Assembly: GCF_001610895.1 (NCBI RefSeq)
Contig: NZ_CP011273.1
Location: 5,642,001 to 5,706,000 of the forward strand
Direction: 5' to 3'
Origin: Planctomyces sp. SH-PL62
GTDB lineage: Bacteria > Planctomycetota > Planctomycetia > Isosphaerales > Isosphaeraceae
Length of the DNA: 64,000 nucleotides
Shown: piece after piece, positions 14,061 through 63,972 of the stretch
Layout of the letters: the number at the start of each line of letters is the position of its first letter
Numbering within the stretch: position 1 is the first letter of the stretch
Notes under the pieces: model-generated
Told to the model about the DNA's origin: nothing
What the model saw: only the letters and a program-made list of their open reading frames with translations
The model's database searches: none
Translations under genes and position numbers: made by a program

Positions 14061-14075
14061 CGAGGCGGCGATGGC

Positions 14076-14117: not shown

Positions 14118-14188
14118 GCCGGTCGTGGAGGAGGTGGGGTCCACCCGACAGGTCGTCGGAGGAAGAAGACGGAGTGGAGTCGACGGCT

Positions 14189-14199: not shown

Positions 14200-14484
14200 A
14201 GGTCGTGTTGCAAAACGTTCCGGCCATCAATTCCAAGGGAAAAGTGCAAAAGTCGGTCCCCCACCCCCGGCGGGTGGAGCAATACCGATGGGGTGTTTCA
14301 TTATTTGTGCGAATCAACTCGACGATCTATCCCCGTACGCTCGAAACCCTTCCCTCAAAGTCGGAGTCCCGGAATACGCCGCCGACCGAAAAACGCCCAT
14401 GGCGAGTGTTCGAGGCCATGAAGCTCGTCCGGGCCGTCGGCATACGTGTCTCCGCTCCTCGGGTGGGGGACGCCGCCATCACCG

Positions 14485-38614: not shown

Positions 38615-39544
38615 TTACGGCTCGATGTTACTGAATCGCTTGGATTTTCTGCTGCTCGCACCCGCCAGGCGTCGCCGGGCATAGCGTGGCGACTCGAAGT
38701 TCGGATCTTCGACCGCCAATTGGCTGCGGCGGACGAAATTGACCACCTCCTCCCCCTCGTCGTTCTTGTGGATCGCCATGCTGTATTCCGGCAAGGCATT
38801 GCCTTCGACGGCCTTCCGTACATCGATGGCGAAATCCGAGAAGCGGGCGGTGGAGCCTGATTTCTCGAAGAGCTGCCGCATGGTGAAGCTCCATCCCAGC
38901 TCCTGCTGGCCAGCGTGCTTCCGCGCCACGCGATAAAGCCAGCGTTCAATGCCTCCGGTGAGCAAGAAATAATCTTCGTGGATGGTCAGCACCCCTCCCC
39001 GCATCAGCACGCCGTCATAGAGCCAATCGGGCAGCGTCATCGTCATGCCTGTGGTTTCGCCAGTCGCCTCATCGATGACTTCCGTCCAGCTCTCCAGCCA
39101 GTGGAAGGAGGCGATTTTTTTCTTGCCGTGGCCACGGATATTCGTGCGAACGGCGGTGTGGGTCAGCCGGTCCAGCGCCGCGCGCAGTCGCCGGTAATGC
39201 TCGCCCCCGGTTTCCCGGCGGATCGCTTTCAGGAGGTTGTAGGGATGGAAATGGATGGTGCGCGACGGTTTCAGCTCGCGGTCCAGGGCTTCCGTCACCT
39301 GGGTAGAAGCCCAAATCAGGATGTCCGCATCCCAGATGGTGGCCATGCCGAATTTCGGGTTGGCGCTCACCTCCACCCACACATCGCCCACCTGATATTC
39401 GATCGGGGCATGGCGTGGCTTCTTCGCCAGGCTGAAGAACGGCCGCTCCATCGTGTCACGCTGATCGCGGATCGGGATATCGGCAAAGCTGGCCGCAAAC
39501 AGGTCCGGCTGGCTATCGCTCGGCGGCGGCGGGCGCTTAGCCAT
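38615..39544 (-). CDS. repA: Plasmid replication initiator RepA (RPA family)
   Basis: A 309-residue protein from ATG 39544. Segments FFSLAKKPRHAPIEYQVGDV, then VEVSANPKFGMATIWDADIL, SRTIHFHPYNLLKAIRRETG and YRRLRAALDRLTHTAVRTNI are typical of the RepA/RPA replication-initiator family of alphaproteobacterial plasmids. Two winged-helix regions bind iterons and open the origin. Its own iterons lie just downstream (38266-38565). A palindromic TACGCGTA sits three bases before the start codon, so binding there could repress translation or transcription. A ParA/RHH partition operon follows on the same strand. Confidence 0.9.
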   Translation of the reverse strand: MAKRPPPPSDSQPDLFAASFADIPIRDQRDTMERPFFSLAKKPRHAPIEYQVGDVWVEVSANPKFGMATIWDADILIWASTQVTEALDRELKPSRTIHFHPYNLLKAIRRETGGEHYRRLRAALDRLTHTAVRTNIRGHGKKKIASFHWLESWTEVIDEATGETTGMTMTLPDWLYDGVLMRGGVLTIHEDYFLLTGGIERWLYRVARKHAGQQELGWSFTMRQLFEKSGSTARFSDFAIDVRKAVEGNALPEYSMAIHKNDEGEEVVNFVRRSQLAVEDPNFESPRYARRRLAGASSRKSKRFSNIEP

Positions 39545-39631: not shown

Positions 39632-39934
39632 TCATCCCTCTTTGCCCTTGAGTTCGTCCACGCCGGGCAAACCGCGTTTGCGGAAGACCAGATCGAGCCC
39701 TTCGATCAGGTAATCGTGCATCTTTTTCCGCTCCTCAAACCCTAAGCGGCGCAGCTGCTCGTAGATCGGGAGGGAGAGATACGCCGTCTGCTGCTTCACG
39801 CCGGCACGGTTCCCGGTCGGCTGCGGCTCGGCCCTAACCGGCGCGGCAACCGCAACCGGCGCCATCGCCGGTTGTTCCTGCTCTAGGTTGCGCGTCAGGA
39901 TGGAATCAAGCGATGTGCGTTTTTTCACTGTCAT
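39632..39934 (-). CDS. Ribbon-helix-helix partition/regulatory protein
   Basis: A 100-residue protein from ATG 39934, which overlaps the 3' end of parA by 29 bases, so translation is coupled. The N-terminus is flexible and Ala/Pro-rich (MTVKKRTSLDSILTRNLEQE through AMAPVAVAAPVRAEPQP). The C-terminal part KQQTAYLSLPIYEQLRRLGF then ERKKMHDYLIEGLDLVFRK has the beta-helix-helix pattern of ParG/omega-type centromere-binding proteins, with a mobile N-terminal tail that stimulates ParA. I infer that it binds the repeated sites upstream of parA and represses the operon. Confidence 0.65.
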   Translation of the reverse strand: MTVKKRTSLDSILTRNLEQEQPAMAPVAVAAPVRAEPQPTGNRAGVKQQTAYLSLPIYEQLRRLGFEERKKMHDYLIEGLDLVFRKRGLPGVDELKGKEG

Positions 39935-40556
39935 AGGCAATCTTCTCCATTTTCTTTTCGATCCAGTTCCACAGCTGCCGGATTTCAGTGGCCGCCTTCC
40001 CTTCCGGCTCATATTCCATCACCCCCAAGCCTGCTCCAAGCGCATCCTGGTAAGCGGCGCGCGTGACGATGCGCACCGGGCTAACGATGCCGAGCATGCT
40101 CAACCCCGCCTCCGCTTCCCGCAACCGCTCGCCGCGCGGCGGCGTCTGCGTCAGCACAAACACCGCCGATTTGGATAGGCGGTTGATGGTGGCGACCGTC
40201 GGCGGCACGGCTCTCAAATCCACCGGCGTGGGGCGGCACGGGATGATGCAGAAATCGGCGCAGCGGATCGCGGCGGTGGTAGACGGCTCATCGCGGCCGG
40301 GCGTATCGATGATCACCAGATCAAATCCGGCGGAGTTGGCCTTGGCGATGGCATCCGGCAGCGACCAGGAATCGATTTTCACCAGCTTGGGCGAATCGGC
40401 TTCACGGTCCTGATACCAGCCTTCCGATGAGGCTTGCGGGTCCAAGTCCAGGATCAGCACCCGATGCTTCTTCAACTCGGCGGCGATTGCGCAGTTGATG
40501 GCGAGGGTGGTTTTCCCCGCTCCTCCCTTCTGTGTGACGAAGGTAATGATCCGCAT
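39906..40556 (-). CDS. parA: ParA-family partition ATPase
   Basis: A 216-residue protein from ATG 40556, with no N-terminal HTH, i.e. the short type Ib ParA. It has the deviant Walker A KGGAGKTT (10-17), the switch region DLDPQASSEGWYQDRE, and Walker B DLVIIDTPGRDEPSTTAAIR. It partners with the small RHH protein encoded immediately downstream and overlapping. ParA forms ATP-dependent gradients on the nucleoid to segregate plasmid copies. The region upstream holds several repeated TACGCGTA/GTACAC-type elements likely to be the centromere. Confidence 0.92.
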   Translation of the reverse strand: MRIITFVTQKGGAGKTTLAINCAIAAELKKHRVLILDLDPQASSEGWYQDREADSPKLVKIDSWSLPDAIAKANSAGFDLVIIDTPGRDEPSTTAAIRCADFCIIPCRPTPVDLRAVPPTVATINRLSKSAVFVLTQTPPRGERLREAEAGLSMLGIVSPVRIVTRAAYQDALGAGLGVMEYEPEGKAATEIRQLWNWIEKKMEKIAYDSEKTHIA

Positions 40557-40840
40557 CGGAAACTCGTTGGCTGTTATACAAGGCTCCCCGTGCAATCGCG
40601 TACAGGTGGGATGGGATACGCGGCACACAGGGTCAGGGTGTGACCCTGCAATAGCATACGCGTACACCAATGTAAATGGTTACGGCGCATGCCTTACTAT
40701 GGGATGCAATGAAACGGGCGCACGGTTTCACACGGATGGCCGTATACGGGTACACGAGGCTACGGCATCATCGTAACGTGGCAGACGCGGACACATCTTT
40801 CCCCGTACGGCGTTACACGAGGATACGCGTATGCCACGGT
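40557..40840. promoter_or_regulatory. Partition operator/centromere candidate upstream of parA
   Basis: This 284-bp gene-free stretch is crowded with related short elements: TACGCGTA at 40657-40664 and 40824-40831, TACACGAGGCTACG near 40751 and TTACACGAGGATACG near 40814. It also has an 8-bp inverted repeat CAGGGTCA/TGACCCTG (40628-40635, 40641-40648). Arrays like this serve as centromeres and autoregulatory operators for ParA/RHH systems. Confidence 0.55.
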
Positions 40841-41715: not shown

Positions 41716-42816
41716 TTAAAGGGCTGATTTTGCGATTAAGTGGTTGGGAAATCGCTCTTTCAGCCGTTCCACGGTTGAACGCCAAACCGGCGTGGTCGGC
41801 TTGCAAACGGTGTTTTGATTGCCGAAAAGCCCAATCTCCTTGATTGCATCCATTATCGGCACAGTTTGCAGCCATTGGATCGGGACGAAGTATTCACATT
41901 TCTCCGAATCATCAACAAATTCCCGGTGGTAGCTTCCTCGCTTTGCCACCTCCAGCACCGGGGCTTCGCCTTGCGGAGTCATCACCCGGAAAGTAGCGGC
42001 AAGCTGAGCGTAGCCGGTCACTTTTCCCACACCGACATAGCCGGTACGCGGGATGTTCACCCAGACACGATCACCGGGGCTAAGCAGTTGAAGCGTCCGG
42101 CTATACCACGCTCCGCCACCGCCGCAGAGGAAGCCAAACTGCACGGCGTCATCCCAGGATCGCGATTCGCCGTGGCCGAAGGAAGCATAGAATTCGCCGT
42201 TCCAAGGCTCGCTAGAACCGCTCGGTGTCGCAGCGGTGCTGATCTGCGTCCGAACCGGGTCCAGTAACCAGGCACGGCTCAGGAGCTGGTCTGGACCATG
42301 CGTGAAAACCTGGAAGAACAGCACGTTGATCGGAATGTCACGGTCGTTGAGGTACGCAACGATGCGTTCCGTGCTATCGTCGAGTGACGATGCGACAATT
42401 ACAATCTGGTGGCTTCTGTTCAGCGAATCCTCATCCAGATCGACACCGAAGCGTAGCCGAAAATCATCCGCCAGGCTGCTGCCCGGCTTGAATCGCTGGT
42501 AGATCGCGGCGATATCGGCTGCCCGCAATCGTTCTACCCAACTGGCGTAGTCAATGGCCTGGGCCACCACTTCGCGTGGCGTACGGTCACGTTTGAGTTC
42601 GATAAGCACCATCGCTCCATCAGGAGCAATGGCCAGCAGATCGATACGACCGCCAAAGCCGGTGTCTTCCTGGCGGCCAATCAGCATCCATTCATCGGAT
42701 AGGATGCGGGGAGCGGCAACAATCATGTCCTCAAGGAGCTGCTCCCTTGCCAGGGATGATTCAGCGAGGATCTGAGGGTTAGAATCGACTTTCCAGATAG
42801 CGTGGCGAATAGGCAT
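41716..42816 (-). CDS. NucS/DUF91-like nuclease beside type III RM
   Basis: A 366-residue protein. The N-terminal third contains DEWMLIGRQEDTGFGGRIDL, then LLAIAPDGAMVLIELKRDRT, a PD-(D/E)XK core (GRIDL...IELK) like the C-terminal domain of NucS/EndoMS and DUF91 proteins. The middle includes SRSWDDAVQFGFLCGGGGAW, and the C-terminal region has an OB- or PUA-like look (GDRVWVNIPRTGYVGVGKVT). It is six bases downstream of the type III Res gene, so part of the same locus. It could be an extra effector nuclease or a modified-DNA sensor. NucS mismatch repair itself is unlikely because the usual N-terminal domain is absent. Confidence 0.65.
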   Translation of the reverse strand: MPIRHAIWKVDSNPQILAESSLAREQLLEDMIVAAPRILSDEWMLIGRQEDTGFGGRIDLLAIAPDGAMVLIELKRDRTPREVVAQAIDYASWVERLRAADIAAIYQRFKPGSSLADDFRLRFGVDLDEDSLNRSHQIVIVASSLDDSTERIVAYLNDRDIPINVLFFQVFTHGPDQLLSRAWLLDPVRTQISTAATPSGSSEPWNGEFYASFGHGESRSWDDAVQFGFLCGGGGAWYSRTLQLLSPGDRVWVNIPRTGYVGVGKVTGYAQLAATFRVMTPQGEAPVLEVAKRGSYHREFVDDSEKCEYFVPIQWLQTVPIMDAIKEIGLFGNQNTVCKPTTPVWRSTVERLKERFPNHLIAKSAL

Positions 42817-42821
42817 AAAAT

Positions 42822-45488
42822 TTATGTGATAATGGGTCGGACAATGGAAGTGAAATCACCCTCGGTCGGCATGACGAATCGGCACTTACCTTTGCTGCGG
42901 GAAGCCCACACTTCGCCAACGGCACGCTTCTCTTCCGCATCGGTGAAAAGGTGCTGGCCTTTATATTCAACCACAAGAATGCATCCGTCGTTCAGCAGGC
43001 AGATGAAATCGGGATAGAATCGATCCTTCGACGTTTGCAGCCGGAACGATGACGGTTTGCGGGAGAGATTGCGTATCCAGCATGTCACTTCGGCCAGGCC
43101 GTCGATGAATTGAGCACACTTAAATTCTTCCGTCAGATGCCCGCCAGGGGTTTTCTCGGCGAGTTCGCCCGGCTTACCGAAATAATGCTTTTTGAACAGG
43201 AACCCGCCGTCATAGAGCCAGCTCGGCTCATAGGCCATCGTTTTGAAATTGATGGCACGGTCGGGGCTAACCGTCAGCTCGGATGCGGGAAGCAGGAATG
43301 CCTGGAACGCTTTCTTGCGTTCTTCCTGGCGGTGCTCGTTGATCCGGTCTTCTACCGCGTCACGCAGCCGGAAGCGGTCCAGGGCGAGCGTGCTTACATC
43401 TGGGATGCCATGCTGAGCCATCAATCCGTTGATGATTTTCAGCAGAAACTTCGCAGATTCGCCTTCGGGGATGTCCTGGTGCGGGATGTGGCGATCCAGC
43501 CAGGCAACCAAAGCTTCCTTCGTCCAGTCATCAGCGGTGCCCAAATCCAGTACCTGCTGATGCAGGGTCGCCACAAAATCGCTGGCCTCTCCTTCGGCAA
43601 CGGCGGCGATGACCTTGCCGCCTAGCACATCCAGCGTACCGGCCTTGCCTGCGGGCCGGTCCAGCGGGTTATAACCCGCCTTCAGCGTGGCGTCCTTCTC
43701 GCTGAGCTTCCATTCGTGCTCCAGCAGGAAGGTGCTTTCAAACTCGAAGAGATTGCCGTTTTCCTGCACGCTGAGCAGGGGCACCACGAAATCGATGCCT
43801 TGCTCATAGGGCGTGGGCACGCGGGTTTGGCCGCTGCCACCGAACGCCTTTTCCGCCTCGCGGATGATGGCGACGGTTTCCTTGATACGTGACTTCGCCT
43901 CCGGCGTCTTCACGCATGCTTGAAGGTACGCGGTTTCCGCATCGTCGAGCGGCACCAGGATCGTGACTTCACCGCTGGCCGTGTCGATCCGTGCCTTGCC
44001 GGAGAGGCTAGGCACCTGTGTCGCGGCCATATCGGCATCGATCTCCTCCGGGGCCAGCTTCAGCGTTTTCGGTTGCACGCCAAGGGGCAGCGTGCCTTGC
44101 GTCACCGGCAGGATGATCCGCTCGGCTTCGGTGGCGGTAAATCCATTGCTGACCAGTGCTTCCCGCAATTCGGCGAGCACGTCCGTCAGCGATTCCGATA
44201 CCGAGAACGCATAGGCACAGTTTAAATCCGGGTGCTGCTTCGGCTGAGCCTTGGGCAGACGCAGGATGCGGCCAACGATTTGCTCAATGGCGGTCGCTGA
44301 GCGGGTCGCCTTCAGGCTGCAGAGCACATACGCGAAGGGGCAATCCCATCCCTCCCGCAGCTTCTCCACGGTGATGATGAACCGCACCGGGCAGGCAGGA
44401 GCGGAAATATCCTTGATATCCTTCAGCTCATCCAAGCGGCCAACGGAAATCTTGATTTGATCTTTCGGAATCCCGAATTCGCTTACCAGCCGCTCGCGTA
44501 GCGGCTCGCACGCATCCACCCGCTCCGCCTGAAAGAGCAGAATCGGCCGGAGATATTCGCCGGTCGCTTGTCCTTCGGCGATGGCCAGCCTTTCCAGGTC
44601 GCTTCTGAGCGTGATCGCTTCGGCAACCAACTGATCGCGTTGGCTGGGATGCCGGGTGATGACGCGAAGCGGCAGCTTTATCATATCCGCTGCTTTCAAC
44701 TCGGCGGCGGATACCGAATCCAGCACGTTCGACGGATTGCCCGAACGGGCAGGGGTGGCGGTGAATTCGATGACGCAGGAGGGCAGCACGTTGCCGAGTG
44801 TGGCAAAGGAAAGATCGGTGCGGGCGTTATGGGCTTCGTCCACGATGACAATGGGGCGGTGCAGGCGTAAGACGTTTACCAGTGAAGGCTTCGGCTTGCC
44901 GTCGGCACCGGGGAGCATGTCGGCAATGCGGCTGGGCGGAAGATTCAGCAAGTGCTCGGCCAGCATGCCGTTCTGGTCGTACACCTTCCGGCCCGTGGTA
45001 TCCTCAACGCGGAATGATTGAATGGTCGAAACTATCACGACCGTCTGCCCTGACACGGCGGCAACGGAGAGCCGCAAGGCTTCTTCGATAGTCAGCACTT
45101 CGACGCTGCCGCACGACAGTTCCAGTGCCCGCCGGTAAGGATGGCGGGGATCGCGTAGAGCATTGGCGGTCTGTTCCAGGATGGCGTTGCTCGGCACCAG
45201 CCAGAGCACCACCGCCCGCTCCGCCTGCAACAGCTCGTCCATCGCTATGCCGGTGGCATGGCAGGCAAGCAGGGTTTTGCCGCCTCCGGTCGGCACACGC
45301 AGGCAGACATAGGGCAATCCAGGTCTGATTCCGGCGGCAGTGACCGGGAGATACGGCATCGGCCGCCGCTCGCGTGCTTCCTGCACCGCCTGGTAGGCGG
45401 CTTCGGGTCTGCCGTCCTTCGAGCACTGGCGAAGAAAATCGCGTAATGAACCAAGCAGTTCAGTTTGATAATTCTTTAGAGAAATCAT
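42822..45488 (-). CDS. res: Type III restriction enzyme Res subunit
   Basis: An 888-residue helicase-nuclease. Walker A PTGGGKT (66-72), DEAH in IVIVDEAHNARTDLS, TAT in EFTATPARSG, and motif VI EQIVGRILRLPKAQPKQHP define a superfamily 2 helicase. The C-terminal nuclease carries RFYPDFICLLNDGCILVVEYKG, the D-x(12-14)-ExK endonuclease core of Res subunits. With Mod it forms the ATP-dependent complex that cuts DNA after translocation or sliding between head-to-head sites. The start codon overlaps the mod stop (ATGA), as in known type III operons. Confidence 0.9.
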   Translation of the reverse strand: MISLKNYQTELLGSLRDFLRQCSKDGRPEAAYQAVQEARERRPMPYLPVTAAGIRPGLPYVCLRVPTGGGKTLLACHATGIAMDELLQAERAVVLWLVPSNAILEQTANALRDPRHPYRRALELSCGSVEVLTIEEALRLSVAAVSGQTVVIVSTIQSFRVEDTTGRKVYDQNGMLAEHLLNLPPSRIADMLPGADGKPKPSLVNVLRLHRPIVIVDEAHNARTDLSFATLGNVLPSCVIEFTATPARSGNPSNVLDSVSAAELKAADMIKLPLRVITRHPSQRDQLVAEAITLRSDLERLAIAEGQATGEYLRPILLFQAERVDACEPLRERLVSEFGIPKDQIKISVGRLDELKDIKDISAPACPVRFIITVEKLREGWDCPFAYVLCSLKATRSATAIEQIVGRILRLPKAQPKQHPDLNCAYAFSVSESLTDVLAELREALVSNGFTATEAERIILPVTQGTLPLGVQPKTLKLAPEEIDADMAATQVPSLSGKARIDTASGEVTILVPLDDAETAYLQACVKTPEAKSRIKETVAIIREAEKAFGGSGQTRVPTPYEQGIDFVVPLLSVQENGNLFEFESTFLLEHEWKLSEKDATLKAGYNPLDRPAGKAGTLDVLGGKVIAAVAEGEASDFVATLHQQVLDLGTADDWTKEALVAWLDRHIPHQDIPEGESAKFLLKIINGLMAQHGIPDVSTLALDRFRLRDAVEDRINEHRQEERKKAFQAFLLPASELTVSPDRAINFKTMAYEPSWLYDGGFLFKKHYFGKPGELAEKTPGGHLTEEFKCAQFIDGLAEVTCWIRNLSRKPSSFRLQTSKDRFYPDFICLLNDGCILVVEYKGQHLFTDAEEKRAVGEVWASRSKGKCRFVMPTEGDFTSIVRPIIT

Positions 45489-47095
45489 GATGTTTTAATC
45501 TCGTAGGGCGTCTGGCGAACGATGACCCGCTCGGCAAGCAGGCGGTCGCGGCCGAGCAAACACCCTGCACAGTAGATGACTTTCTGGCCATCAAACGGCG
45601 GAAGCTTAGCGAGCACGGCCCGCGTCAGCACGTTTCCGCCGTTAGCGGTCCGGTCGCCGAGGATGCCGTTGAACAGCAGATAGATACCGACGCCACGGCA
45701 CTCACCGAGAAACGGCGAATTGAGTTCACCTGCCAGCGGCAGCGGTTCGCCGGTTTCCGTGAAGTACACATGCCGGGCTAGGTCAGCGAATCGCACCGTA
45801 TCACGAATCTTGCCACTCTCATCGAACAGCGGTTCTCCCAACTCGCAATAGCGGAAGCTCCCGCCGACCGCTTCGACGCTGATCTCGCCCTTTGCTTTGG
45901 TGTAGCCAGTAGCTGCCCGGCGGACACGTTCGCAGGTAACTTCGCGGGCAATCTTCGATTCCATTTCAACAAGAAGAAATCTGCGAGGGGGTTTGCCCTG
46001 GGTAGCGTGGTTAAGCTTTAGGGCAGCATGGCCTGTCGTGCCGGAACCGGAAAAGGAATCAAGGATGAGGTCGCCAGGATTGCTAGCAATTTGCAGTATC
46101 CGCTCTAGAAGCCGTGTCGGCTTGGGAGTATCAAATGCTGTTTGAGTACCAAATAATGCTTGAATTTCCTTCTTGGCTTCGTCTGTGTGCCCAACTTCCT
46201 CATGCGGCCACCAAGTCCAGGGAACGAATCCTTCTACCTCATCAAGAAAACGAATAACGCTCGGTTGTGCCTTGTTGTCTTTGCCGAAATAAATCCGGCC
46301 TGCTGCTTCAAGCTTCTTGAATTCCGGTTCAATCATTGACCAACAACGGCCTTCAGGCGGAGTATGGACGATACCGGCAGGGGTAGTAATTTCATACATT
46401 TGATTTGGGCGATATCCCTGTGCCGTCATAGGAATACCACGCCATCGGCCACGCGGGTGATTGTTGAGATTCTTGTAAACTTTGGCCTGCTCCTCCGTAA
46501 GTCCTACCAAATTCCGTGTCGCTTTGAACGCATCAGGATTCATGGCATATACCACGACGTATTCATGCACGTCGCCGATAGCTTCCCGATTCTCGCGGGA
46601 ATATCGCTTTTGCCAGATATTGCAGGCAACAAAACGTTGCCTGCCGAAAATCTCGTCCATCAACATTCTGAGTAAAGTGAGTTCTGAATCGTCGATGGAA
46701 ATCCAGATGGAACCATCAGACCGAAGAAAATCTTTCAAAACTTGAAGGCGTGGATACATCATGCAAAGCCAGCGGTCGTGACGGTCGAGCGTTTCACCCT
46801 CCTTGCCGACCGCCTTGCCAAGCCATTCCCGGATGAGTGGACTGTTGACGTTATCGTTGTATACCCATCCTTCGTTGCCCGTGTTATACGGAGGATCGAT
46901 ATAAATGCATTTAACTTGTCCAGCGTAGTAGGGCAGAAGGGCTTTGAGGGCGACCAGATTATCCCCCTGGACGATCAGGTTCCCGCTGCCTGGATCGCCG
47001 CACGCCAGCTCCGGCACGTCTTTCAGCAGGTGGAACGGCACCTTCTGATGGTGGGTGATGACGGCTTCTTTGCCGATCCAATTCAACGTAGGCAT
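45485..47095 (-). CDS. mod: Type III adenine methyltransferase Mod subunit
   Basis: A 536-residue beta-class N6-adenine methyltransferase. Catalytic DPPYNTG is at 67-73, and the SAM-binding FSGSGTTGHAALKLN lies near residues 344-358, after DPPY as the beta class requires. The central target-recognition region (about 140-330) will set sequence specificity. The C-terminus contains IYLLFNGILGDRTANGGNVL, common in Mod proteins of this group. It protects host DNA and gives specificity to Res. It is the first gene of the operon, divergent from the Cas4-like pair at 47338. Confidence 0.9.
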   Translation of the reverse strand: MPTLNWIGKEAVITHHQKVPFHLLKDVPELACGDPGSGNLIVQGDNLVALKALLPYYAGQVKCIYIDPPYNTGNEGWVYNDNVNSPLIREWLGKAVGKEGETLDRHDRWLCMMYPRLQVLKDFLRSDGSIWISIDDSELTLLRMLMDEIFGRQRFVACNIWQKRYSRENREAIGDVHEYVVVYAMNPDAFKATRNLVGLTEEQAKVYKNLNNHPRGRWRGIPMTAQGYRPNQMYEITTPAGIVHTPPEGRCWSMIEPEFKKLEAAGRIYFGKDNKAQPSVIRFLDEVEGFVPWTWWPHEEVGHTDEAKKEIQALFGTQTAFDTPKPTRLLERILQIASNPGDLILDSFSGSGTTGHAALKLNHATQGKPPRRFLLVEMESKIAREVTCERVRRAATGYTKAKGEISVEAVGGSFRYCELGEPLFDESGKIRDTVRFADLARHVYFTETGEPLPLAGELNSPFLGECRGVGIYLLFNGILGDRTANGGNVLTRAVLAKLPPFDGQKVIYCAGCLLGRDRLLAERVIVRQTPYEIKTS

Positions 47096-47337
47096 GATGC
47101 GGAACTACAATCCTGTTCTGTGCTTAGAGCAATGGCGGTGAGCGGTCCCGCTAACGTTCGCCGGTCATAGGTAGCGTGATCCGGGGGCGAAGGCAAGCGG
47201 CTGAGAAGCCTGCATGATATCGCTCTGCCGTCAGCATGATACTGGAATCTTGTACCGCGAGCAAGGTTCTGGTGTTGCAGGGTACAACTGGACAGATTGC
47301 CTGCGATCAGCGATCCTCTTCGTGGGGAGGAGATTCG

Positions 47338-47616
47338 ATGCAGGAGAATACCGAAGCACCGGGGAATGCACGTCGCAGACTGATTTCGGCCCATGAAATC
47401 GCCTGTTTCGCCTACTGCCCGGAGCAATGGCGGTTGCAATACGGCTTGAAGCTGCCGCCTGGCAACCGGGCAGAGCTGGCAGCAGGCACGCGGCATCACC
47501 GGCGGAAGACGGTCGCGGTGCGGAAGGCGGGGCTCCTCACCACGCTCGGCACGTTTCTGGGGCTGATTGCCGCTTCTGCGTTCTTCGTCTACTTGCTTTT
47601 GGTGGTCTGGCGGTAA
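47338..47616 (+). CDS. N-terminal half of a Cas4-like membrane nuclease
   Basis: A 92-residue protein from ATG 47338 with GGGGAGGAG upstream. LISAHEIACFAYCPEQWRLQ carries Cys23 and Cys27 and matches the first Fe-S cysteine region and opening helix of Cas4/Dna2-type nucleases. A single hydrophobic helix at the C-terminus (TTLGTFLGLIAASAFFVYLL) anchors it. It lacks the nuclease core, which is in the next ORF; the stop and next start overlap as TAATG. Both ORFs together reconstitute one Cas4 fold with a membrane hairpin at the junction. It diverges from the type III mod gene. Confidence 0.65.
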   Translation: MQENTEAPGNARRRLISAHEIACFAYCPEQWRLQYGLKLPPGNRAELAAGTRHHRRKTVAVRKAGLLTTLGTFLGLIAASAFFVYLLLVVWR

Positions 47617-48122
47617 TGGGCTGGGCGTTCATTTGGCTCATCGCCATTGCCTTCTTGGCTATGCTTGGACTGCTTCTTCTGCTGTCGGGGAAACAGGTGC
47701 ATCAACGCCAGGGTCTTGCCGACGGCCCGACCGTGGCGATGGATAGCGTCACGCTAAAATCCCGCCGGTATGGCTTGATCGGCCGCCCGGATCGGCTGAT
47801 TCGCCAGGGCGGTACGATTATCCCGGAAGAATGGAAGTCATCCCGCACCGTGCGACCGTGGCATCTAGCTCAGATGGGCGTGTATTTCCTGCTGATCGAG
47901 GAAGAGCTAGGGGTGATTCCTCCGCACGGTTTCATCGTCTGCGGCAATGGCACCCGGCACCGCATCGACAACAGCGAAGAGCTGCGGGCCTGGGTGCTGG
48001 ATCTGGCCAGCGGCATCCGTTCGGCACGGGCGGCGATAGCTGCTCCAATCCCGGTGCAGCCAAAAGCAGGTCAGTGCCGGCCCTGCGGCATGCGGGTTTA
48101 CTGCGTGCAAGCAAGATTGTAG
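47616..48122 (+). CDS. C-terminal half of a Cas4-like membrane nuclease
   Basis: A 168-residue protein from ATG 47616, overlapping the preceding stop by one base. The N-terminal helix (GWAFIWLIAIAFLAMLGLLL) is membrane-spanning. The nuclease core follows: YGLIGRPDRLIRQGGTIIPE with Asp59, EEWK with Glu72-x-Lys74, and Gln86 in PWHLAQMGVYFLL. Cys154, Cys157 and Cys163 (QCRPCGMRVYC) supply the remaining Fe-S ligands of Cas4. No CRISPR array or cas1/cas2 is in the window, so it is a solo Cas4-like enzyme, probably 5'-3' ssDNA exonuclease activity at the membrane, perhaps in DNA-uptake defence or processing. Confidence 0.72.
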   Translation: MGWAFIWLIAIAFLAMLGLLLLLSGKQVHQRQGLADGPTVAMDSVTLKSRRYGLIGRPDRLIRQGGTIIPEEWKSSRTVRPWHLAQMGVYFLLIEEELGVIPPHGFIVCGNGTRHRIDNSEELRAWVLDLASGIRSARAAIAAPIPVQPKAGQCRPCGMRVYCVQARL

Positions 48123-48172: not shown

Positions 48173-49249
48173 TCATGTATCTAAAGATTCATCCCATTCG
48201 GCACCCAAAACCCACGCTAATGCGGACATTCGGCCGCTGAGCAATCCCCATTCAAAATCATTCCAGCCAAGATTCTCCCTGCCATACTTCTCTTCGATGC
48301 ATCGTGCGGTTGCCTTGGCCTGCTCCAAGATCGGTCCTTGGGCGTCGGTCAACGGTTCCTCGCCGGTTTCGATTCGGTAAAGCCAGTTCTGATGGCGGTT
48401 CCACCACACCTTGTCCCAAAACACATTGTAAGCCGCGAGGATGGCGTTATCGCTACGACGGAGTAGCAGCGGCAATTCCTCGCCAGGATTCTCTTCATCG
48501 GGAATCCATTCGACTTTATCGCCTTCGTCGGTGTAGCCGATGCGGTGGCCGTTTGGGCCTACTTCACCCGGCGGCACTGGGTCTGTTGTCTGAGCGTGAG
48601 TACGCGGTTCCATACCAATAAACGCATCACGGAATGTCATAAAAGCCTCCGGCGTGATGTTTCTTCGAACCGATTCAGGTATTAAGTTCATAACTCTCTC
48701 TGAGACATCCAAATTCTCATAAAAAGAAGGCGAGCGGCACCCCTTCAGCAACCTGACTTGATTCACCAAATTTCTGTGAATTATCCGCCGCAACTCATCG
48801 ATGCTGCTGAAATTGCCTACCAGTGCCGTGGTGTAGGTTTCCTCCTTGAAATCCCGAAGCCTACCAAGCTGTGCCAGGTCAATTTTACCTGGATCAATAG
48901 GACGGTTGGAAAAATAGAGCTGGGCAGGCTTTTTGGCGGCAATGAATTGGTCGATTTCCTCGACCGTACCTGATTCAGCCACGCCGGTGCTGGTGCCGAG
49001 CTTGGTCCAAAACATGCCGATCAGCATGTCACAAGAGCGGACAAGCTGGGCGTTAATCGCCTCCTGCGGCCGGATGGCCGCTTGCGGCAGTGCGTGCGTT
49101 TCCCACTTCACCGGCAGCAGGACGATGTTCTCGGCGACGGCGTGCAAGGCGTTCCATTCGTTGACGGCATCGGTGGCCACCTGTCGCTCTTCCGCCAGAT
49201 CGGAAGGCGAGGCGATCATGACGCGGTAGGTGCTGGCGTGGAAGGGCAT
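48173..49249 (-). CDS. DUF4062-domain protein (putative defence effector)
   Basis: A 358-residue protein from ATG 49249. The N-terminal ~160 residues ([20 protein letters not shown], then [40 protein letters not shown] and [20 protein letters not shown]) match DUF4062, a TIR-like Rossmann fold found in predicted NTPase and NAD-related defence proteins. The C-terminal half ([40 protein letters not shown]) is unrecognised. The gene lies 5 bp downstream of a small partner gene on the same strand and beside the restriction and Cas4-like genes, which supports but does not prove a defence role. Confidence 0.68.
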
Positions 49250-49254
49250 GGCAG

Positions 49255-57175: not shown

Positions 57176-59905
57176 ATGCTGCGCATCCACCAAGTCACCA
57201 CCGCTTCCGGCGCGAAGAACTACTACGCGGCCAGCGACTATTACGCGGATGGGCAGGAAACATTGGGCGCCTGGGGAGGTACGCTGGCGGAGCGGATGGG
57301 CCTGTCCGGCACCGTGGACAAGGCGAGCTTTGACCGGCTCTGCGACAACCTCCATCCCGCCACGGGGAAATCGCTCACGCCGCGCACCAACGCGGAGCGG
57401 CGGGTGGGCTATGACTTCGTGTTCTCCGCCCCCAAATCCTTCAGCATCGTGGAAGCGCTGGCCGGCGAATCGGGCCGCCAGGAGCTTCTATCTGCCTTCG
57501 ACGCCTCCATCCGGGAAACCATGGAAGAGCTGGAAGCCGACATGCAGACGCGCGTGCGGAGGCAGGGCGCGGATTGCGATCGCACCACCGGCAATCTGCT
57601 CTATGCCAGCTTCGACCACAGTACGGCGCGCCCGGTGGGTGGCGCGGTGCCGGACATGCACCGTCACCGTCATGTGCTGGTGTTCAACGCCACCTTCGAT
57701 GCGGATGAGGACCGGATCAAGGCCGGACAATTCGCAGCGATCAAGCGGGACGGAGAGTATTTCACCGCCGCCTTCTATGCCCGGCTAGCCAATCGGCTGG
57801 AGGGCATGGGCTACCGCATCGACCGCAGTCGGGGCCTGAAGGAGTGGGAAATCGCCGGGGTGCCGCAAGCGGTGATCGACCGGTTCAGCAAGCGTTCGGA
57901 GGAAGTGCAGGAAGCGCACGAGGAGAAGCGGAAGAACGATCCCACCTACCGGGAGGAGTACAAGCACGAGCTGGGTGCAAAGACGCGCTCGGGCAAGCAG
58001 AAGGAGCTGACACCGGCAGAGCTGCGGGCTGCCTGGGAAGGGCAGCTTTCGGATGCCGACCGGCAGGCGCTGGCCGCCGTGTACGGCAGGCGGATCGCGC
58101 CGGATGCCAGGGTTTCTGCCAGCGAGGCGGTGTCCTACGCGGTCCACCACTGCTTTGAGAAGGCATCGGTAGTGCCGGAACGGGAGCTGAAGCGGGTGGC
58201 GCTGCTCTACGGCCTGGGCGATGTCACGGCGGATGAGGTAGCGGCGGAGCTGCCGCGTCAGGGCATCATTACGCGCACCAAGGGCGACCGGCTGCTGGCT
58301 ACCACCAAGGCGGTACAGCGGGAAGAGGAAGAAATCGCGGCATTTGCTACCCGGATGGGGCCGGTCAAACCGGTGGGGCTGCCGGACGGGCTGAACCGTG
58401 GCGCGCTCGATGACGACCAGTGGCGGGCGGTGCAGGGCCTTCTTACCTCCAGCTGCCGCGTCAACGTGGTCAACGCGATTGCCGGCACCGGCAAGACCAC
58501 CGCGCTCGGCATTTACGATCAGGCGATGCGGCTGGCCGGCGAGGAGGTGACGTATCTGGCCAGCACGGCCGAAGCGGCCAAAGTGCTGAACAAGGAAGGG
58601 TTTGAGGCGGTGACGGTCGCGCATTTCCTGCTGGATGAACGGATGCAGGAGCGGGCGAAGGATGGCCGCGTCGTCATCGATGAATCCTCCCTTCTCGGGC
58701 ACCGGGACGCCTACCGGCTGTTCGGCCTTGCCGCCGAGAAAAATCTGAAGCTCAATTTCGTCGGCGATTCCCGCCAGCATGGCTCGGTGGCCAGGGGATC
58801 GCTCCTGCATGTGCTGACCACCTACGGCGGAATCACGCCCTTTACCATCGCCACGATCAAGCGGCAGAAGGGCAGCCACTACCGGAAGGCGGTGGAAGCC
58901 CTGGCGGCTGGTGAGACGGTTTCCGGCTTCGATCAGCTCGACCGGCTGGGCTGGGTGAAGGAAAACCGGGAAGGCGACCGCTATTGGCACCTGGCCAACG
59001 AATATGTGCAGGCCATCAACGACAAGAAAACCGCCCTGGTGGTCAGCCCCACCCATGCCGAAGGCGAGCGCATCACGCGGGAAATCCGCCGCCAGCTCAG
59101 GCTGGCGAAGAAGCTGGGCAAGGAGGAGCGGGCGTTTACCCGGCTGGTGGCACGGAACTTAAGCGAAGCCGAGCGCGGTGATGCACGCAATTACCAGGGC
59201 GGCGATGTGCTCCAGTTCCACCAGAATGCGAAGCAGGGCTTTGGCAAAGGCGACCGGCTGGCATTCTCCGGGGCAGAGGACGCGCGCGCCGGCCTGCCGG
59301 TCGGCGAAGCGGCGAGATTCCAGGTCTACCGCCCGGAAACCATCCACCTGGCCAAAGGCGATCTGATCCGGTTCACCGCTAATGGCCGCTCCCTCGATGG
59401 CAAGCACAAGCTCACCAACGGCTCCAGCTACCGCGTGGCTGGCTTCACCGAAGGCGGCAATATCCGCCTTGAAAACGGCTGGGTGGTCGGCAAGGAGGAA
59501 GGGCATTTCCGGCACGGCTACGTGGAAACCTCCTTCGGCAGCCAGGGCAAAACGGTTGATCGCGTCATCCTCGGCATGGCGGCAATCTCGCTGCCGGCGA
59601 TCAATCGGGAGCAGATGTATGTCTCCAGCTCGCGCGCCCGCGAGCGGCTGACACTCTATACCGACGACAAGGAAGCGGTGCGCGAGGGCATCCAGCGCTC
59701 TTCCGCCAAAATCGCGGCGCTCGACCTGGTGGGCCACGCGGCGCACCCCAACCTGTTTCAGCCGCCGCACGCGGCCCGCAAGGCCAGCCTTGCCGAACGC
59801 ATGCGTCGGCAAGCGGATAAGCTGAAACGCTTACGCTTCTATCAGCGTATACGCGTATCCCACGATACCCCGCAACCGGAGAGGAGTCATGTCCATGGAC
59901 GCTAG
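57176..59905 (+). CDS. MobF-family relaxase/helicase (TrwC/TraI-like)
   Basis: A 909-residue protein. The N-terminal relaxase has tyrosines 16, 17, 22 and 23 (KNYYAASDYYADGQ), the region GYDFVFSAPKSFSIVEALAG, and the three-His metal site in DMHRHRHVLVFNATFDAD. A RecD/TraI-type helicase follows, with Walker A AGTGKTTALG near residue 438, VVIDESSLLGHRDAY and a UvrD-like C-terminal motif GKTVDRVILG then YVSSSRARERLTLYT. It nicks oriT, stays covalently bound to the 5' end and unwinds DNA for conjugative transfer. No type IV secretion genes are in the window, so the plasmid may be mobilizable only. A TACGCGTA site lies near its 3' end. Confidence 0.93.
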   Translation: MLRIHQVTTASGAKNYYAASDYYADGQETLGAWGGTLAERMGLSGTVDKASFDRLCDNLHPATGKSLTPRTNAERRVGYDFVFSAPKSFSIVEALAGESGRQELLSAFDASIRETMEELEADMQTRVRRQGADCDRTTGNLLYASFDHSTARPVGGAVPDMHRHRHVLVFNATFDADEDRIKAGQFAAIKRDGEYFTAAFYARLANRLEGMGYRIDRSRGLKEWEIAGVPQAVIDRFSKRSEEVQEAHEEKRKNDPTYREEYKHELGAKTRSGKQKELTPAELRAAWEGQLSDADRQALAAVYGRRIAPDARVSASEAVSYAVHHCFEKASVVPERELKRVALLYGLGDVTADEVAAELPRQGIITRTKGDRLLATTKAVQREEEEIAAFATRMGPVKPVGLPDGLNRGALDDDQWRAVQGLLTSSCRVNVVNAIAGTGKTTALGIYDQAMRLAGEEVTYLASTAEAAKVLNKEGFEAVTVAHFLLDERMQERAKDGRVVIDESSLLGHRDAYRLFGLAAEKNLKLNFVGDSRQHGSVARGSLLHVLTTYGGITPFTIATIKRQKGSHYRKAVEALAAGETVSGFDQLDRLGWVKENREGDRYWHLANEYVQAINDKKTALVVSPTHAEGERITREIRRQLRLAKKLGKEERAFTRLVARNLSEAERGDARNYQGGDVLQFHQNAKQGFGKGDRLAFSGAEDARAGLPVGEAARFQVYRPETIHLAKGDLIRFTANGRSLDGKHKLTNGSSYRVAGFTEGGNIRLENGWVVGKEEGHFRHGYVETSFGSQGKTVDRVILGMAAISLPAINREQMYVSSSRARERLTLYTDDKEAVREGIQRSSAKIAALDLVGHAAHPNLFQPPHAARKASLAERMRRQADKLKRLRFYQRIRVSHDTPQPERSHVHGR

Positions 59906-60501: not shown

Positions 60502-62400
60502 TCAGGCGGCTGCGTGTTCCACGCCAATAGCGTTCGGTTCCACTACTGGTTCCGCCGCTTCTGCCTCCCGTGGCAGGAACGCCATGCCTTCCGGTAGCCA
60601 CGCGGCGAGTTTTGCCGCCGCCTCGGCGCTGTGTCCGGGCTGCTCCGGCTCGCGGAACGCGGCGTCAAGCCGCTCCACCAGCTCGGTTTTCTTGTAGTCC
60701 ATGCGTTGGTACGCCCACGCTTCGCCCACAAGCTCGGCACCGAGCGCCAGCAGCTGTGCGCGGGTGAGCCGCTTCAGATACTGCGCCTTGCCCGGTCGCC
60801 AGAAAGCGGCCACCTCCACGCCGGTCAGCGTCATCGCCTGCTCATAGGCGGTTGCCTCATGGCCGGTGGAGAGCTGCGGCTGTAGGCTCTGCGCCACGCA
60901 GAAGGCGAAGATGGCGTGCTTTGCCGTCTCCGGCATCGCCCGGAACTGGCGGAATTGCTCGGCTTCCTCCTCCGGCTCCAGCCAATGCCGGGGCAAGCCC
61001 TGCCGAATCGCCTCCATCGCGTTCGCCGCTGCCGTGTCGCCGGCTCCGTCGAATTTACCCCGGTGCTCAATCAGGCGAATATCCAGCCCGGTTGAAATGG
61101 GCTGGCCGAATGCGTCACGGACGAGGGTGAAGGCCAGCCAATCGAAGGCGAGCGCCGGGTTTCCGGCGATGGCCGCTTGCGCCACTTGCAGGCGGTAGGC
61201 TTCCAGATCGCGGCGGAGCGAATCCGGCATTTTTCCTGCCGCGCCCTTTGCGTGGGCGCAGGGCGCTGCCAGCCGTTTGGCATCGCCTTTGAGCAACAGC
61301 CCTTTTTCCACCTCCAATGCCCCGTTGTGTCCGATGATGAGGCAACATCCGGCAAGTTGCATCTGCTCTGGATCGTAAGCGGTGAACCGTGCCAGCTCGG
61401 CGGCGATGGCTTCCAGCGCCGCCTCGGCTGCCTCCTGTGCCTCTATCAGCGCCTCGGATTCCGTGTCGTCCAGCGCTGCCAGAATGTCGTTCAGCTCGGA
61501 TTCTGCACGGGCTTGGCGTTCCAGAAGCTCCTCCGGCACGTTCAGCGGTTTGGGGGTAATCCGGCTGCACTGGTGGAGAAACTGCCAGTCGCGCTCCGGC
61601 ATGATCTCGACCCATGCCCAGCCTTCGGCCAGCAGCGCCTGCCGCTCCGCTTCCATCCGCTCGGCGGCGATGCGGTGCAAAAGCTCCGGGTTTTCCAGAT
61701 AGACCGCTTCCCCGAACAAATCGGCGCGGATGATACCGCCTGCCTGTTGGTAGGCATCCAGCCCGACGAACACCGCCAGCCTGTCCTTGCCGCTCGGCAT
61801 GGTTTCGGTCAATAGGGCGCGGATGTCGCGGGCGTTACGCTGCCACTCCGACAAGCCGCGATAGACGCTCACTTGCCGCTTGTGGTCATCGGTCAACGTG
61901 AAAGCCATCAGGCATTCGAGGCTGATTTCTCCCGCGCGGTACGCGCTCAGCAGCTCCGGCGCGACCCGCGCCAGTTTCAGGCGTTTCAGAACATGGGCTT
62001 CCTCCACGCCGAAGCGCGTAGCGATGTCGGCGGAGGATAGCCCTTGCCCGGCCAGCCGGGCGAAGGCTTCACACTCGTCCGCCGGGTGCATGGCGTGGCG
62101 CACGGTGTTTTCCGCCAAGCTCAACTCCTGCGCCTGTGCTTCCGTGTAGATGTGGCAGGGCACGGCGTAATCGTCCGGCAGATGGCCTTCCGACTGGAGC
62201 GCGTGCAGTGCGGCCAGCCGCCTGCCTCCGGCAAATACCTGAAATTTCCCCTTCTTGGCAGGGTGGACGCTCAGATTCTGCAACAGGCCATGGGCGCGGA
62301 TGGATGCTTTCAGCTCGTCGCACGCGGCGGCGTTTCCGGTGCGCCGGACGTTGAGCGGGGATTTAGCAAGCTTCTTGACTTCGATTAGTTGCGTATTCAT
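60502..62400 (-). CDS. Large ParB/RepB-like plasmid protein
   Basis: A 632-residue protein. The first ~200 residues are a ParB domain: SPLNVRRTGNAAACDELKAS, GKFQVFAGGRRLAALHAL, AQELSLAENTVRHAMHPADE and the HTH GQGLSSADIATRFGVEEAHV. The remaining ~430 residues are unlike ParB and are rich in Ala/Glu helices (LNDILAALDDTESEALIEAQ, then EAAEAALEAIAAELARF), with a late conserved part (GVEVAAFWRPGKAQYLKRLT). Such long ParB-like proteins accompany MobF relaxases and ArdC on plasmids; partition itself is handled by ParA/RHH here, so an accessory or regulatory role is likelier. Confidence 0.85.
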   Translation of the reverse strand: MNTQLIEVKKLAKSPLNVRRTGNAAACDELKASIRAHGLLQNLSVHPAKKGKFQVFAGGRRLAALHALQSEGHLPDDYAVPCHIYTEAQAQELSLAENTVRHAMHPADECEAFARLAGQGLSSADIATRFGVEEAHVLKRLKLARVAPELLSAYRAGEISLECLMAFTLTDDHKRQVSVYRGLSEWQRNARDIRALLTETMPSGKDRLAVFVGLDAYQQAGGIIRADLFGEAVYLENPELLHRIAAERMEAERQALLAEGWAWVEIMPERDWQFLHQCSRITPKPLNVPEELLERQARAESELNDILAALDDTESEALIEAQEAAEAALEAIAAELARFTAYDPEQMQLAGCCLIIGHNGALEVEKGLLLKGDAKRLAAPCAHAKGAAGKMPDSLRRDLEAYRLQVAQAAIAGNPALAFDWLAFTLVRDAFGQPISTGLDIRLIEHRGKFDGAGDTAAANAMEAIRQGLPRHWLEPEEEAEQFRQFRAMPETAKHAIFAFCVAQSLQPQLSTGHEATAYEQAMTLTGVEVAAFWRPGKAQYLKRLTRAQLLALGAELVGEAWAYQRMDYKKTELVERLDAAFREPEQPGHSAEAAAKLAAWLPEGMAFLPREAEAAEPVVEPNAIGVEHAAA

Positions 62401-63078: not shown

Positions 63079-63972
63079 TCAGCCTTCCGGCTTCGGCTGC
63101 AGGGCGTGCAGAAAATCCACCGCCTTCTGCGCCTCGGCAGCGGCGGAGAAGATGGCGCGTTTGTCTTCCCTCAGCACTTTCAGCCAGTGATCCAGGTAGC
63201 TGGCGTGGTCTTCCCGCGGCTCCGGCGTGATCGCCAGATCGGCGGAAAGGAACGCGGCGCCAAGCTCGGCCACCAGCTCTTCGCGGGCGTAGCCTTCATC
63301 GCCGAACTTCTTCCGGCCAAAATCCCGGTTCAATCGGCTGCCATGCTTCGTCCAGTGGGTCAGCTCGTGGGCGAGCGTGGAGCAATAGGACTGCGCATCG
63401 CGGAACGTTTCAAAGGGCGGCATCTGCACGTAATCCGGCGCTTCCGCATAGTAAGCCCGGTTGCCGCCATGGCGGATGTCGGCTTGCGTATTGGCGTAGA
63501 AGAGGTCAGCCTGGGCAATCCGCTCCTGCGGCTGGAGCTGGGTGGAAGCGGTCGCGTAGAAATGAGCGGGCAAGCCTTCGGTCTGCTCGGCGTTGAAGAC
63601 GGTATAGCCCTTCATGAAATAAATATCCTTCTCCACCTCTTCGCCATCGTCGGTGGTGTCGGTTTTGGTCATGCGGTCGGAATAGACAACCAGCGTGCCC
63701 TTGGCTCCGGCCTTGATGTGGCCGCCCAATTCCCTGGCCTGCTTGAAGGTAATCCACAGCGGGGCGGCAAAGCCCTGGGCAGCGGCGCTCATCCAGAGTT
63801 GAATCACGTTAATTCCACGGTACGGCTGGCCACTGGAGCGAAGTGGGCGGGTGATCTTGCCCGCCAGATGCTCGGCGTTCCACGGCTGGAGCCACGGACG
63901 CACGCCGCGCTCCAGCTCGGAAACGATGTGGTCGGTGACGCGGGTATAGATATCGGCTCGGTCGGTGTTCAT
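63079..63972 (-). CDS. ArdC-like antirestriction protein
   Basis: A 297-residue protein from ATG 63972 with AAGGAG upstream. The N-terminal ArdC domain (DRADIYTRVTDHIVSELERG, RPWLQPWNAEHLAGKITRPL, GQPYRGINVIQLWMSAAAQG) is followed by YFMKGYTVFNAEQTEGLPAH and a zincin domain with HELTHWTKHGSRLNRDFG and, further on, EELVAELGAAFLSADL, giving His-Glu-x-x-His plus Glu. It protects transferred ssDNA from restriction and should act early after conjugation. It is a distant homologue of the protein at 8561. In this half it is the last gene of the mobilisation/antirestriction block. Confidence 0.92.
   Translation of the reverse strand: MNTDRADIYTRVTDHIVSELERGVRPWLQPWNAEHLAGKITRPLRSSGQPYRGINVIQLWMSAAAQGFAAPLWITFKQARELGGHIKAGAKGTLVVYSDRMTKTDTTDDGEEVEKDIYFMKGYTVFNAEQTEGLPAHFYATASTQLQPQERIAQADLFYANTQADIRHGGNRAYYAEAPDYVQMPPFETFRDAQSYCSTLAHELTHWTKHGSRLNRDFGRKKFGDEGYAREELVAELGAAFLSADLAITPEPREDHASYLDHWLKVLREDKRAIFSAAAEAQKAVDFLHALQPKPEG

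Follow-up and report, generated by a model that had tools for sequence, protein, structure and literature searches.

A Cas4-like nuclease divided between two overlapping genes with predicted membrane helices on mobile elements of planctomycetes and Bacillus

Cas4 is a soluble helper of the memory of clustered regularly interspaced short palindromic repeat (CRISPR) systems, and copies encoded outside CRISPR have no agreed role. This work concerns two overlapping open reading frames (ORFs), ORF1 and ORF2, in a 64,000-nucleotide stretch of the genome of Planctomyces sp. SH-PL62 (NZ_CP011273.1, positions 5,642,001 to 5,706,000; the whole stretch is called the window), which an earlier reading of the letters without database searches, the original prediction, took for a Cas4-like nuclease split between two membrane proteins. 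We find that this divided form recurs, with its active site and its hydrophobic helices, on mobile elements of planctomycetes and of Bacillus. Like this pair, the non-CRISPR Cas4 homologues described by Hudaiberdiev et al. (2017, PMC5704561) are carried by mobile elements, one clade being found on conjugative plasmids of Burkholderiales, and some lie beside restriction systems; in the main text of that study the word 'split' is not used, and the word 'membrane' appears solely as part of the name of an unrelated gene. Cas4-type enzymes are described in PMC11981726 as having 5'-3' exonuclease and endonuclease activity.

CRISPR Cas4 itself (TIGR00372, PF01930; structures 8d3l, 7mi5, 4ic1 and 4r5q) shares with the pair a RecB-type active site, an arrangement of one plus three cysteines, and the fold predicted for the joined halves. 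However, it is one soluble chain encoded with cas1 and cas2, whereas 20 planctomycete pairs, those of the more distant genomes G559 and G630, and two Bacillus plasmids encode two chains with hydrophobic helices, with no cas1 found near the pair. Dna2, AddAB and EndoDinG likewise combine a Cas4-like nuclease with a helicase, and a DinG-type helicase gene precedes the Bacillus pair, but in these enzymes the nuclease is fused to or complexed with the helicase, unlike the pair; we know of none with a membrane hairpin. MGME1, EXO5 and the Argonaute-associated ACE1 have the same nuclease fold, but are single chains as solved, and their cellular contexts differ by name. The site proposed for the pair, the membrane where DNA enters, would be that of the EndA and NucA DNA-entry nucleases and of plasmid entry exclusion proteins, although these belong to unrelated families, and we know of no entry exclusion protein with nuclease activity. 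A split or membrane Cas4 was not found in open-access papers (PMC), and the split membrane form is new relative to the homologues of mobile elements as far as that literature shows. The main text of a paper on Isosphaeraceae plasmids, which treats PALBO2 and its homologues, does not contain the term 'Cas4' (PMC5352709).

Assignment to the Cas4 family comes chiefly from ORF2, which is matched by Pfam Cas_Cas4 (E 1.8e-9; 38.3 bits against a cut-off of 22.7), by PDDEXK_1 (1.1e-6, above its cut-off), by the Cas4 models of PADLOC (best 6.6e-17), and by NCBIfam TIGR00372 cas4 (3.7e-13), in the last case at 49.7 bits, short of the curated cut-off of 65 bits. ORF1 alone matches weakly (PDDEXK_1 9e-4, below its cut-off; TIGR00372 0.091, 12.6 bits), and none of the PADLOC Cas4 models match it. 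The PHROGs matches were also weak, and mostly to exonucleases. Residue conservation was counted over 21 intact pairs, comprising that in the window, those at 19 other planctomycete loci and that on one Bacillus plasmid; the second Bacillus plasmid, G559, G630 and G078 stand outside this set, as do six degraded or truncated loci (L089, L090, L095, L097, L101 and L103). Across all 21, C27, W31 and G50 of ORF1 and D59, E72, K74, Q86, Y90, C154, C157 and C163 of ORF2 are invariant, and R57 is kept in 20, with Lys in L098. The pair has the D...ExK core, motif I histidine and QxxxY of the Cas4/RecB-like PD-(D/E)XK superfamily and, judged by sequence, the four-cysteine 4Fe-4S pattern, one N-terminal and three C-terminal, in every pair. 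His54, which we take by analogy with Cas4 to be the motif I histidine, lies in ORF1, meaning that the shorter chain holds a likely catalytic residue besides its iron-sulphur ligand. Hence the proposal of a Cas4-like nuclease divided over two membrane ORFs overlapping as TAATG is borne out, as are the GRPD, ExK and Gln residues and the three cysteines that it named in ORF2; of the two ORF1 cysteines that it named, Cys27 stands, while Cys23, kept in only 3 of the 21 pairs, falls.

The two genes have evolved as one unit, with their distance matrices correlating at r 0.85 (n=21; 0 of 5000 permutations; 0.845 when Bacillus is left out). Between L082 and L084, the closest pair, the ratio of nonsynonymous to synonymous substitution rates (dN/dS) was 0.36 for ORF1 and 0.07 for ORF2, while the medians over comparisons with dS <2, rough owing to saturation, are 0.52 (175 comparisons) and 0.40 (168), and some ORF2 values among the eight closest comparisons reach 0.84. 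The two alignments used misplace some ORF1 tails, and deep support in the tree is low (0.0 and 0.5 near the Bacillus root), such that the branching order carries no conclusion.

At the break between the chains, each has a hydrophobic segment of 19 residues, with a mean Kyte-Doolittle hydropathy of 2.46 at residues 72-90 of ORF1 and of 2.92 at residues 5-23 of ORF2. Over the 21 pairs, helix 1 ends one to seven residues before the ORF1 C-terminus, and helix 2 starts within the first ten residues of ORF2. Transmembrane-like ORF1 C-termini were seen in all 21 pairs, compared with 12 of 480 ORFs of the same regions, and transmembrane-like ORF2 N-termini in 20 of 21, compared with 32 of 480, a background that includes some genes of the pairs themselves. 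Lysine and arginine number two to five in the 15 residues ahead of helix 1 and two to six in the 15 after helix 2, with none or one on the far sides. By the positive-inside rule, this would place both parts of the nuclease in the cytoplasm and the chain break outside, agreeing with the earlier suggestion that the active site lies on one side of the membrane; the cellular location of the pair is likewise probably the membrane.

Matches to ORF2 (E <=1e-12) were found in 19 of 45 genomes of the window's family, its own included, and the relatives include Singulisphaera, Tautonia, Aquisphaera and other Isosphaeraceae, Planctomycetales and Planctomycetota. Among 30 regions, the window and 29 others, both ORFs were matched in 26 (tblastn), with L102, L104, L105 and L106 matching ORF2 only; 20 pairs were intact, and all 20 were split, an arrangement that is more than chance, given its recurrence in all intact relatives that were read. 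For L086, ORF1 was taken to start where the open frame starts, and the start used for L083, giving 161 residues, is probably too far upstream. The original prediction would have fallen to a sequencing error dividing a single soluble frame, which the 20 intact planctomycete pairs, the class relatives G559 and G630, two B. subtilis plasmids and a divergent planctomycete copy rule out. A fused single-chain membrane version was not seen among the sequences examined. The weak matches in G558 and G625 have no separate ORF1 and appear by eye to be CRISPR-type single-chain Cas4, with a Cas2-like ORF upstream in G558. Searches of the phylum and class matched two of 392 and 24 of 397 genomes respectively, the window's own included, though only nine candidates were scored per genome, making the negatives weak. 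Four queries of viral contigs gave 58, 7, 74 and 23 pattern matches, none of which were confirmed, and two queries of a phage set found nothing.

A divided gene might instead be a remnant, either a decayed, frameshifted Cas4 or one protein made by programmed frameshifting, as could be read into the -1 relation of the two frames in 18 of the 21 pairs, where they overlap by four bases (15 pairs), one base (the window and L092) or ten bases (one pair), and into the ten of 29 Isosphaeraceae places at which the pair is degraded or truncated. Yet two loci, L096 and L099, are divided by an in-frame TAG, and in Bacillus ORF2 follows in the third frame after a gap of four bases, and therefore no single conserved frameshift could join the ORFs; programmed frameshifting is ruled out by this variation between loci. 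The active-site residues are also conserved, the closest pair has a dN/dS below one, and helices flank the break in all 21 pairs, making a remnant of either sort improbable in the extreme. Individual copies do appear broken: the window's own genome (G000) has, on another contig (C3:48548-49029, L102), a second copy of ORF2 in two pieces in different frames, without a match to ORF1, and the divergent split pair of G078 (L112, 8214-8767, minus strand) has a TAG inside ORF2, which fits either decay or a special reading of TAG.

The two pairs divided by TAG could be read through as single chains for structure prediction, giving models with a predicted local distance difference test (pLDDT) score of 84.2 and a predicted template modelling (pTM) score of 0.72 in one case, and 84.5 and 0.75 in the other. 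Aligned by VIA-align, the first model matched the 7mi5 Cas4 (Z 18.5, root-mean-square deviation 2.8, 156 aligned; residues 4-226 of the model against 6-177 of the chain), and also 8d3l (16.6), MGME1 (13.3), Dna2 (11.8), the DinG of F. magna (11.1), ACE1 (10.5), EXO5 (10.2) and AddAB (8.7). As the alignment covers 156 of the 172 residues in this range of the 7mi5 chain, participation of both halves in the fold is very probable. Foldseek likewise placed 8d3l Cas4 at 8.1e-7, and also found Dna2, MGME1 and ACE1, while by sequence the ORF2 profile reaches 8d3l in the PDB at E 0.0076. Hence the joined halves are predicted, as a single chain, to have the Cas4 fold. The similarity to Cas4 on which the initial proposal depended thus holds by profile for ORF2 and by predicted fold for the joined pair, and the two-helix hairpin that it had inserted between the halves is present in both models as a long helical hairpin, formed by helices 36-84 and 88-114 in one model and 35-81 and 85-116 in the other, which separates the beta core from the N-terminal helices.

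The pair is carried by mobile elements, being found on pSINAC03, PALBO2 and two B. subtilis plasmids, as well as in the window. The replication, partition, relaxase and antirestriction genes of the window (Table 1), with a type IV secretion system coupling protein and an integrase directly beyond it, and the counterparts in pSINAC03 of ParB, the pair, mobF, the next gene and the coupling protein, indicate that the pair lies on an integrated plasmid. PLSDB types pSINAC03 as conjugative, MOBF and MPF_T; its ORF1 is annotated as a hypothetical protein (WP_015250768.1), and its ORF2 as a PD-(D/E)XK nuclease family protein (WP_015250769.1). PALBO2 (NZ_CP019084) is classed as non-mobilizable by PLSDB/MOB-suite despite an annotated mobF. 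The recurrent companion of the planctomycete pair is the MobF (TrwC) relaxase, which was found in 15 of 19 pair-bearing genomes compared with five of 26 others (45 genomes; Fisher p 8.5e-5). With contigs taken as linear, and the second piece of G021:C225 merged with the first, nine of 29 Isosphaeraceae places were within 10 kb of TrwC, 13 within 25 kb and 15 within 70 kb, against 0.16, 0.40 and 1.13 expected under uniform placement. Outside the family, TrwC lies 17.8 kb from the pair of G047 and 15.9 kb from that of G559, and the pair of G630 is on a 5.4-kb contig, with its TrwC on other contigs only. The converse relationship is looser, as the pair is within 25 kb at only 14 of 39 TrwC places, and is therefore accessory. 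At one locus (L083), a TrwC relaxase (1-1611, minus strand) lies 0.7 kb from the pair in the opposite orientation, and the gene at 11600-14710 (minus strand) encodes a SIR2-STAND-TPR protein of a kind met in defence systems.

The same architecture occurs in a second phylum. Searching 72,556 plasmids with the read-through pair (tblastn) gave 16 records at E <=1, comprising two from planctomycetes, three from Bacillus subtilis (64-65 kb; 2e-10 to 3e-10), and 11 weaker, nine of which are annotated as CRISPR cas4. In the two B. subtilis plasmids that were read, an 81-residue 'hypothetical' gene with CPxxW, GxxxH and a C-terminal helix directly precedes a 162-residue 'Dna2/Cas4' gene, the product of which starts with a helix, as in the window; identity to the window is 25% for ORF2 and 28% for ORF1. 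The one plasmid mapped, NZ_OX419581 (L107), encodes TcpC (3.7e-22), TcpD, TcpE and a DUF87/TrwB-like coupling-type ATPase, a Tcp-type transfer system that is different from the MobF system of planctomycetes, though PLSDB/MOB-suite classes the plasmid as non-mobilizable despite these genes. The order of its genes is a DinG-type helicase (9342-11462, plus strand; typeIV_DinG 2.2e-117, Helicase_C_2 1.6e-44), a 77-residue gene, the pair, and then Hfq-, SNase- and primase-like genes, with no CRISPR gene other than the DinG-scoring helicase named in the annotation of positions 2616-63590.

Sequence evidence supports the division of the nuclease between two genes, its membrane helices, its conserved active site and its linkage to transfer genes, along with the predicted Cas4 fold of the joined halves; from these we infer a DNA-entry or defence nuclease. 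Our favoured interpretation, which we consider about equally likely to be right or wrong, is that of a membrane-anchored, two-chain Cas4-type nuclease by which conjugative or mobilizable elements guard against incoming DNA. ORF1 and ORF2 would form one obligate two-chain RecB-family 4Fe-4S enzyme, to which ORF1 would supply the first iron-sulphur cysteine and the motif I histidine, and ORF2 the Asp and Glu that bind metal, together with the Lys, the QxxxY motif and three further cysteines. A two-helix hairpin would anchor it in the inner membrane, with the chain break in the periplasmic turn and both catalytic parts in the cytoplasm, and coupled translation would make the chains together and in the same place, where they may assemble and load their cluster. 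The tethered nuclease could then attack DNA as it arrives in the cytoplasm, either at free ends or as unprotected single strands, shielding the resident plasmid and its host from rival incoming DNA. In conjugation, the relaxase covers the 5' end of the entering strand, and the element's own transfer strand would be spared in this way. A guard is favoured by the pair being accessory, by its frequent loss and frequent proximity to restriction genes, and by its predicted place at the membrane in cells that carry mobile elements; its accessory, guard-like nature is seen in only 14 of 39 TrwC places having the pair within 25 kb, and in the 11 of 29 places with an N6 methyltransferase gene no more than 10 kb away.

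The same membrane enzyme might instead process the ends of the element's own DNA, whether transferred, re-circularising or replicating, near the transfer channel and with a helicase, this being the helicase domain of MobF in planctomycetes and the DinG-type enzyme in Bacillus. Linkage to the relaxase suits this alternative, as do the DinG-type helicase gene ahead of the Bacillus pair and the primase-like gene after it, and the Z of 11.1 between the model and F. magna DinG may point the same way. PMC11981726 further describes Cas4-type enzymes as acting on DNA ends, and EndoDinG as a DinG helicase to which a Cas4-like nuclease domain is fused. However, the absence of the pair within 25 kb at 25 of 39 TrwC places, and its presence with two different transfer systems, mean that it is not core transfer machinery, and its degradation or truncation at ten of 29 places means that an element can probably dispense with it. 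Processing of the element's own DNA is a possible, if doubtful, explanation, and the chief alternative to a guard.

Several points weigh against a guard enzyme, or against parts of that interpretation. The neighbours of the Bacillus pair suit processing of DNA ends at least as well as exclusion, and the divergent pair of G078, with the internal stop in its ORF2, lies amid genes unrelated to transfer, and TrwC was not matched in that genome. The linkage to TrwC was judged against uniform placement, a weak null given that mobile genes cluster in islands, and a pair and relaxase 15-24 kb apart need not cooperate; while 12 of 19 intact Isosphaeraceae pairs are within 25 kb of TrwC, two are at 56 and 63 kb, and the remaining five lie on contigs that lack TrwC and are 10-40 kb long. 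The candidate motif I histidine, His54, is kept in 20 of 21 pairs, being Gln in L093. The alignments underlying the two structural models are shallow (12 and 13 rows) with largely common rows, so that the models are not independent; pLDDT is low at residues 21-40 of the first (59-66), and falls to 60-67 and 42-74 in blocks of the last 30 or so residues, which contain the three C-terminal cysteines and lie beyond the range aligned to Cas4.

Restriction genes are the other conspicuous neighbours. The divergent type III restriction-modification operon that the original prediction saw beside the pair is real, its genes matching MTase_III (3.6e-196) and REase_III (6.3e-134), and its divergent position 242 bases away could make the pair the nuclease arm of this or another defence operon, degrading restriction fragments. 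N6 methyltransferases of PF02384, those identified being of MmeI or Eco57I type, were within 5 kb of the pair at nine of 29 places and within 10 kb at 11 (0.22 expected), counted over the matches of pair-bearing genomes with several secondary matches of one gene omitted, and solo Cas4 genes lie next to restriction systems in DPANN archaea, as described in PMC5704561. Yet the type of system varies from type III in the window to MmeI and Eco57I types elsewhere, and some loci showed another type or no system that was found. At 18 of 29 places, the contig carries no methyltransferase of PF02384 closer than 10 kb to the pair, a count that includes short contigs and the window, where the methyltransferase is PF01555. 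Restriction is therefore cargo of the same region rather than a conserved partner, the recurrent partner being the MobF relaxase, or the Tcp-type system in the one Bacillus plasmid mapped; the meaning first attached to the adjoining operon is unsupported, and a role for the pair as its nuclease arm is unlikely. The third gene of this operon (41716-42816, minus strand) has a NucS-like stretch and matches the PADLOC candidate family PDC-S11 (2.2e-157). Convergent with the pair, the gene at 48173-49516 (minus strand), with DUF4062 (Pfam 3.9e-6) and a match to the PADLOC candidate PDC-S60 (2.8e-23), is perhaps another defence gene.

A Cas4 fold on a plasmid could also act as a decoy, disturbing the acquisition of CRISPR spacers by the host and thereby hiding the plasmid. 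A phage Cas4-like protein has reportedly been tied to the acquisition of host-derived spacers in Campylobacter, and Cas1 is present in 12 of 19 pair-bearing Isosphaeraceae genomes. However, the other seven show no Cas1, including the window's own (G000, E 1e-8), in keeping with the earlier view that the pair is without CRISPR genes; none of the Cas1 matches listed is near the pair on the same contig, with many assemblies fragmented; and the membrane anchor would have no evident use. A decoy is accordingly very improbable.

The features of the window are collected in Table 1. A simple scan for promoters gave none. Between the pair and mobF are overlapping genes for a MazE-like antitoxin and a PemK/MazF-like toxin (51160-51746, plus strand), followed by a resolvase (51913-52482), and between the resolvase and mobF are two genes with prepilin-type N-terminal methylation motifs (54349-55254, plus strand; 55769-56638, minus strand); pSINAC03 likewise has one gene of this kind.

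Table 1. Positions, in window coordinates, of the gene pair, its predicted elements and its neighbours
Feature	Position	Strand	Remarks
ORF1, 92 aa	47338..47616	+	N-terminal Cas4 half (CPExWR with Cys27; GxxxH with His54), then predicted C-terminal transmembrane helix
ORF2, 168 aa	47616..48122	+	Predicted N-terminal transmembrane helix, then GRPD, ExK, QxxxY nuclease core and Fe-S cysteines 154, 157, 163
TAATG stop/start overlap	47614..47618	+	One base common to ORF1 and ORF2; likely translational coupling
GGGGAGGAG, Shine-Dalgarno-like, ahead of ORF1	47324..47332	+	By inspection
Transmembrane helix 1 (predicted), ORF1 residues 72-90	47551..47607	+	Hydropathy; N-in/C-out by charge
Transmembrane helix 2 (predicted), ORF2 residues 5-23	47628..47684	+	Hydropathy; N-out/C-in by charge
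Cys27 codon, first Fe-S ligand	47416..47418	+	21/21 pairs
His54 codon, motif I	47497..47499	+	20/21 pairs
Catalytic D59, E72, K74 codons	47790..47837	+	Each 21/21 pairs
Q86 and Y90 codons, QxxxY motif	47871..47885	+	Each 21/21 pairs
Cys154, Cys157, Cys163 codons, other Fe-S ligands	48075..48104	+	Each 21/21 pairs
Divergent type III restriction-modification operon	41716..47095	-	Mod 45485-47095, Res 42822-45488, third gene 41716-42816; local cargo
MobF/TrwC relaxase with helicase domain	57176..59905	+	Recurrent companion of the pair; Pfam TrwC 2.3e-68, AAA_30 7e-43
RPA-type replication initiator (RepA)	38615..39544	-	Pfam RPA 1.5e-79; marks integrated plasmid
ParA-type partition ATPase of integrated plasmid	39906..40670	-	
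ParB-like partition protein	60502..62400	-	Common to window and pSINAC03
ArdC-type antirestriction protein of integrated plasmid	63079..63972	-	

Tentatively, and with somewhat less than even confidence, these pairs may constitute a new class of integral-membrane, obligate two-chain Cas4, occurring in at least two phyla on elements that differ in their conjugation system, and policing or processing DNA at the transfer channel, with the periplasmic break potentially serving as a switch for assembly or release. A form of Cas4 that is conserved, built into the membrane, divided at one constant position and borne by plasmids of two phyla links one group of these enzymes outside CRISPR to DNA transfer and to a cellular site, so that the role of the pair becomes testable in Bacillus subtilis. 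If the enzyme processes the element's own DNA, it would represent an accessory step of conjugation of which we know no other example; if it is a guard, it would be a plasmid-borne nuclease acting where DNA enters the cell.

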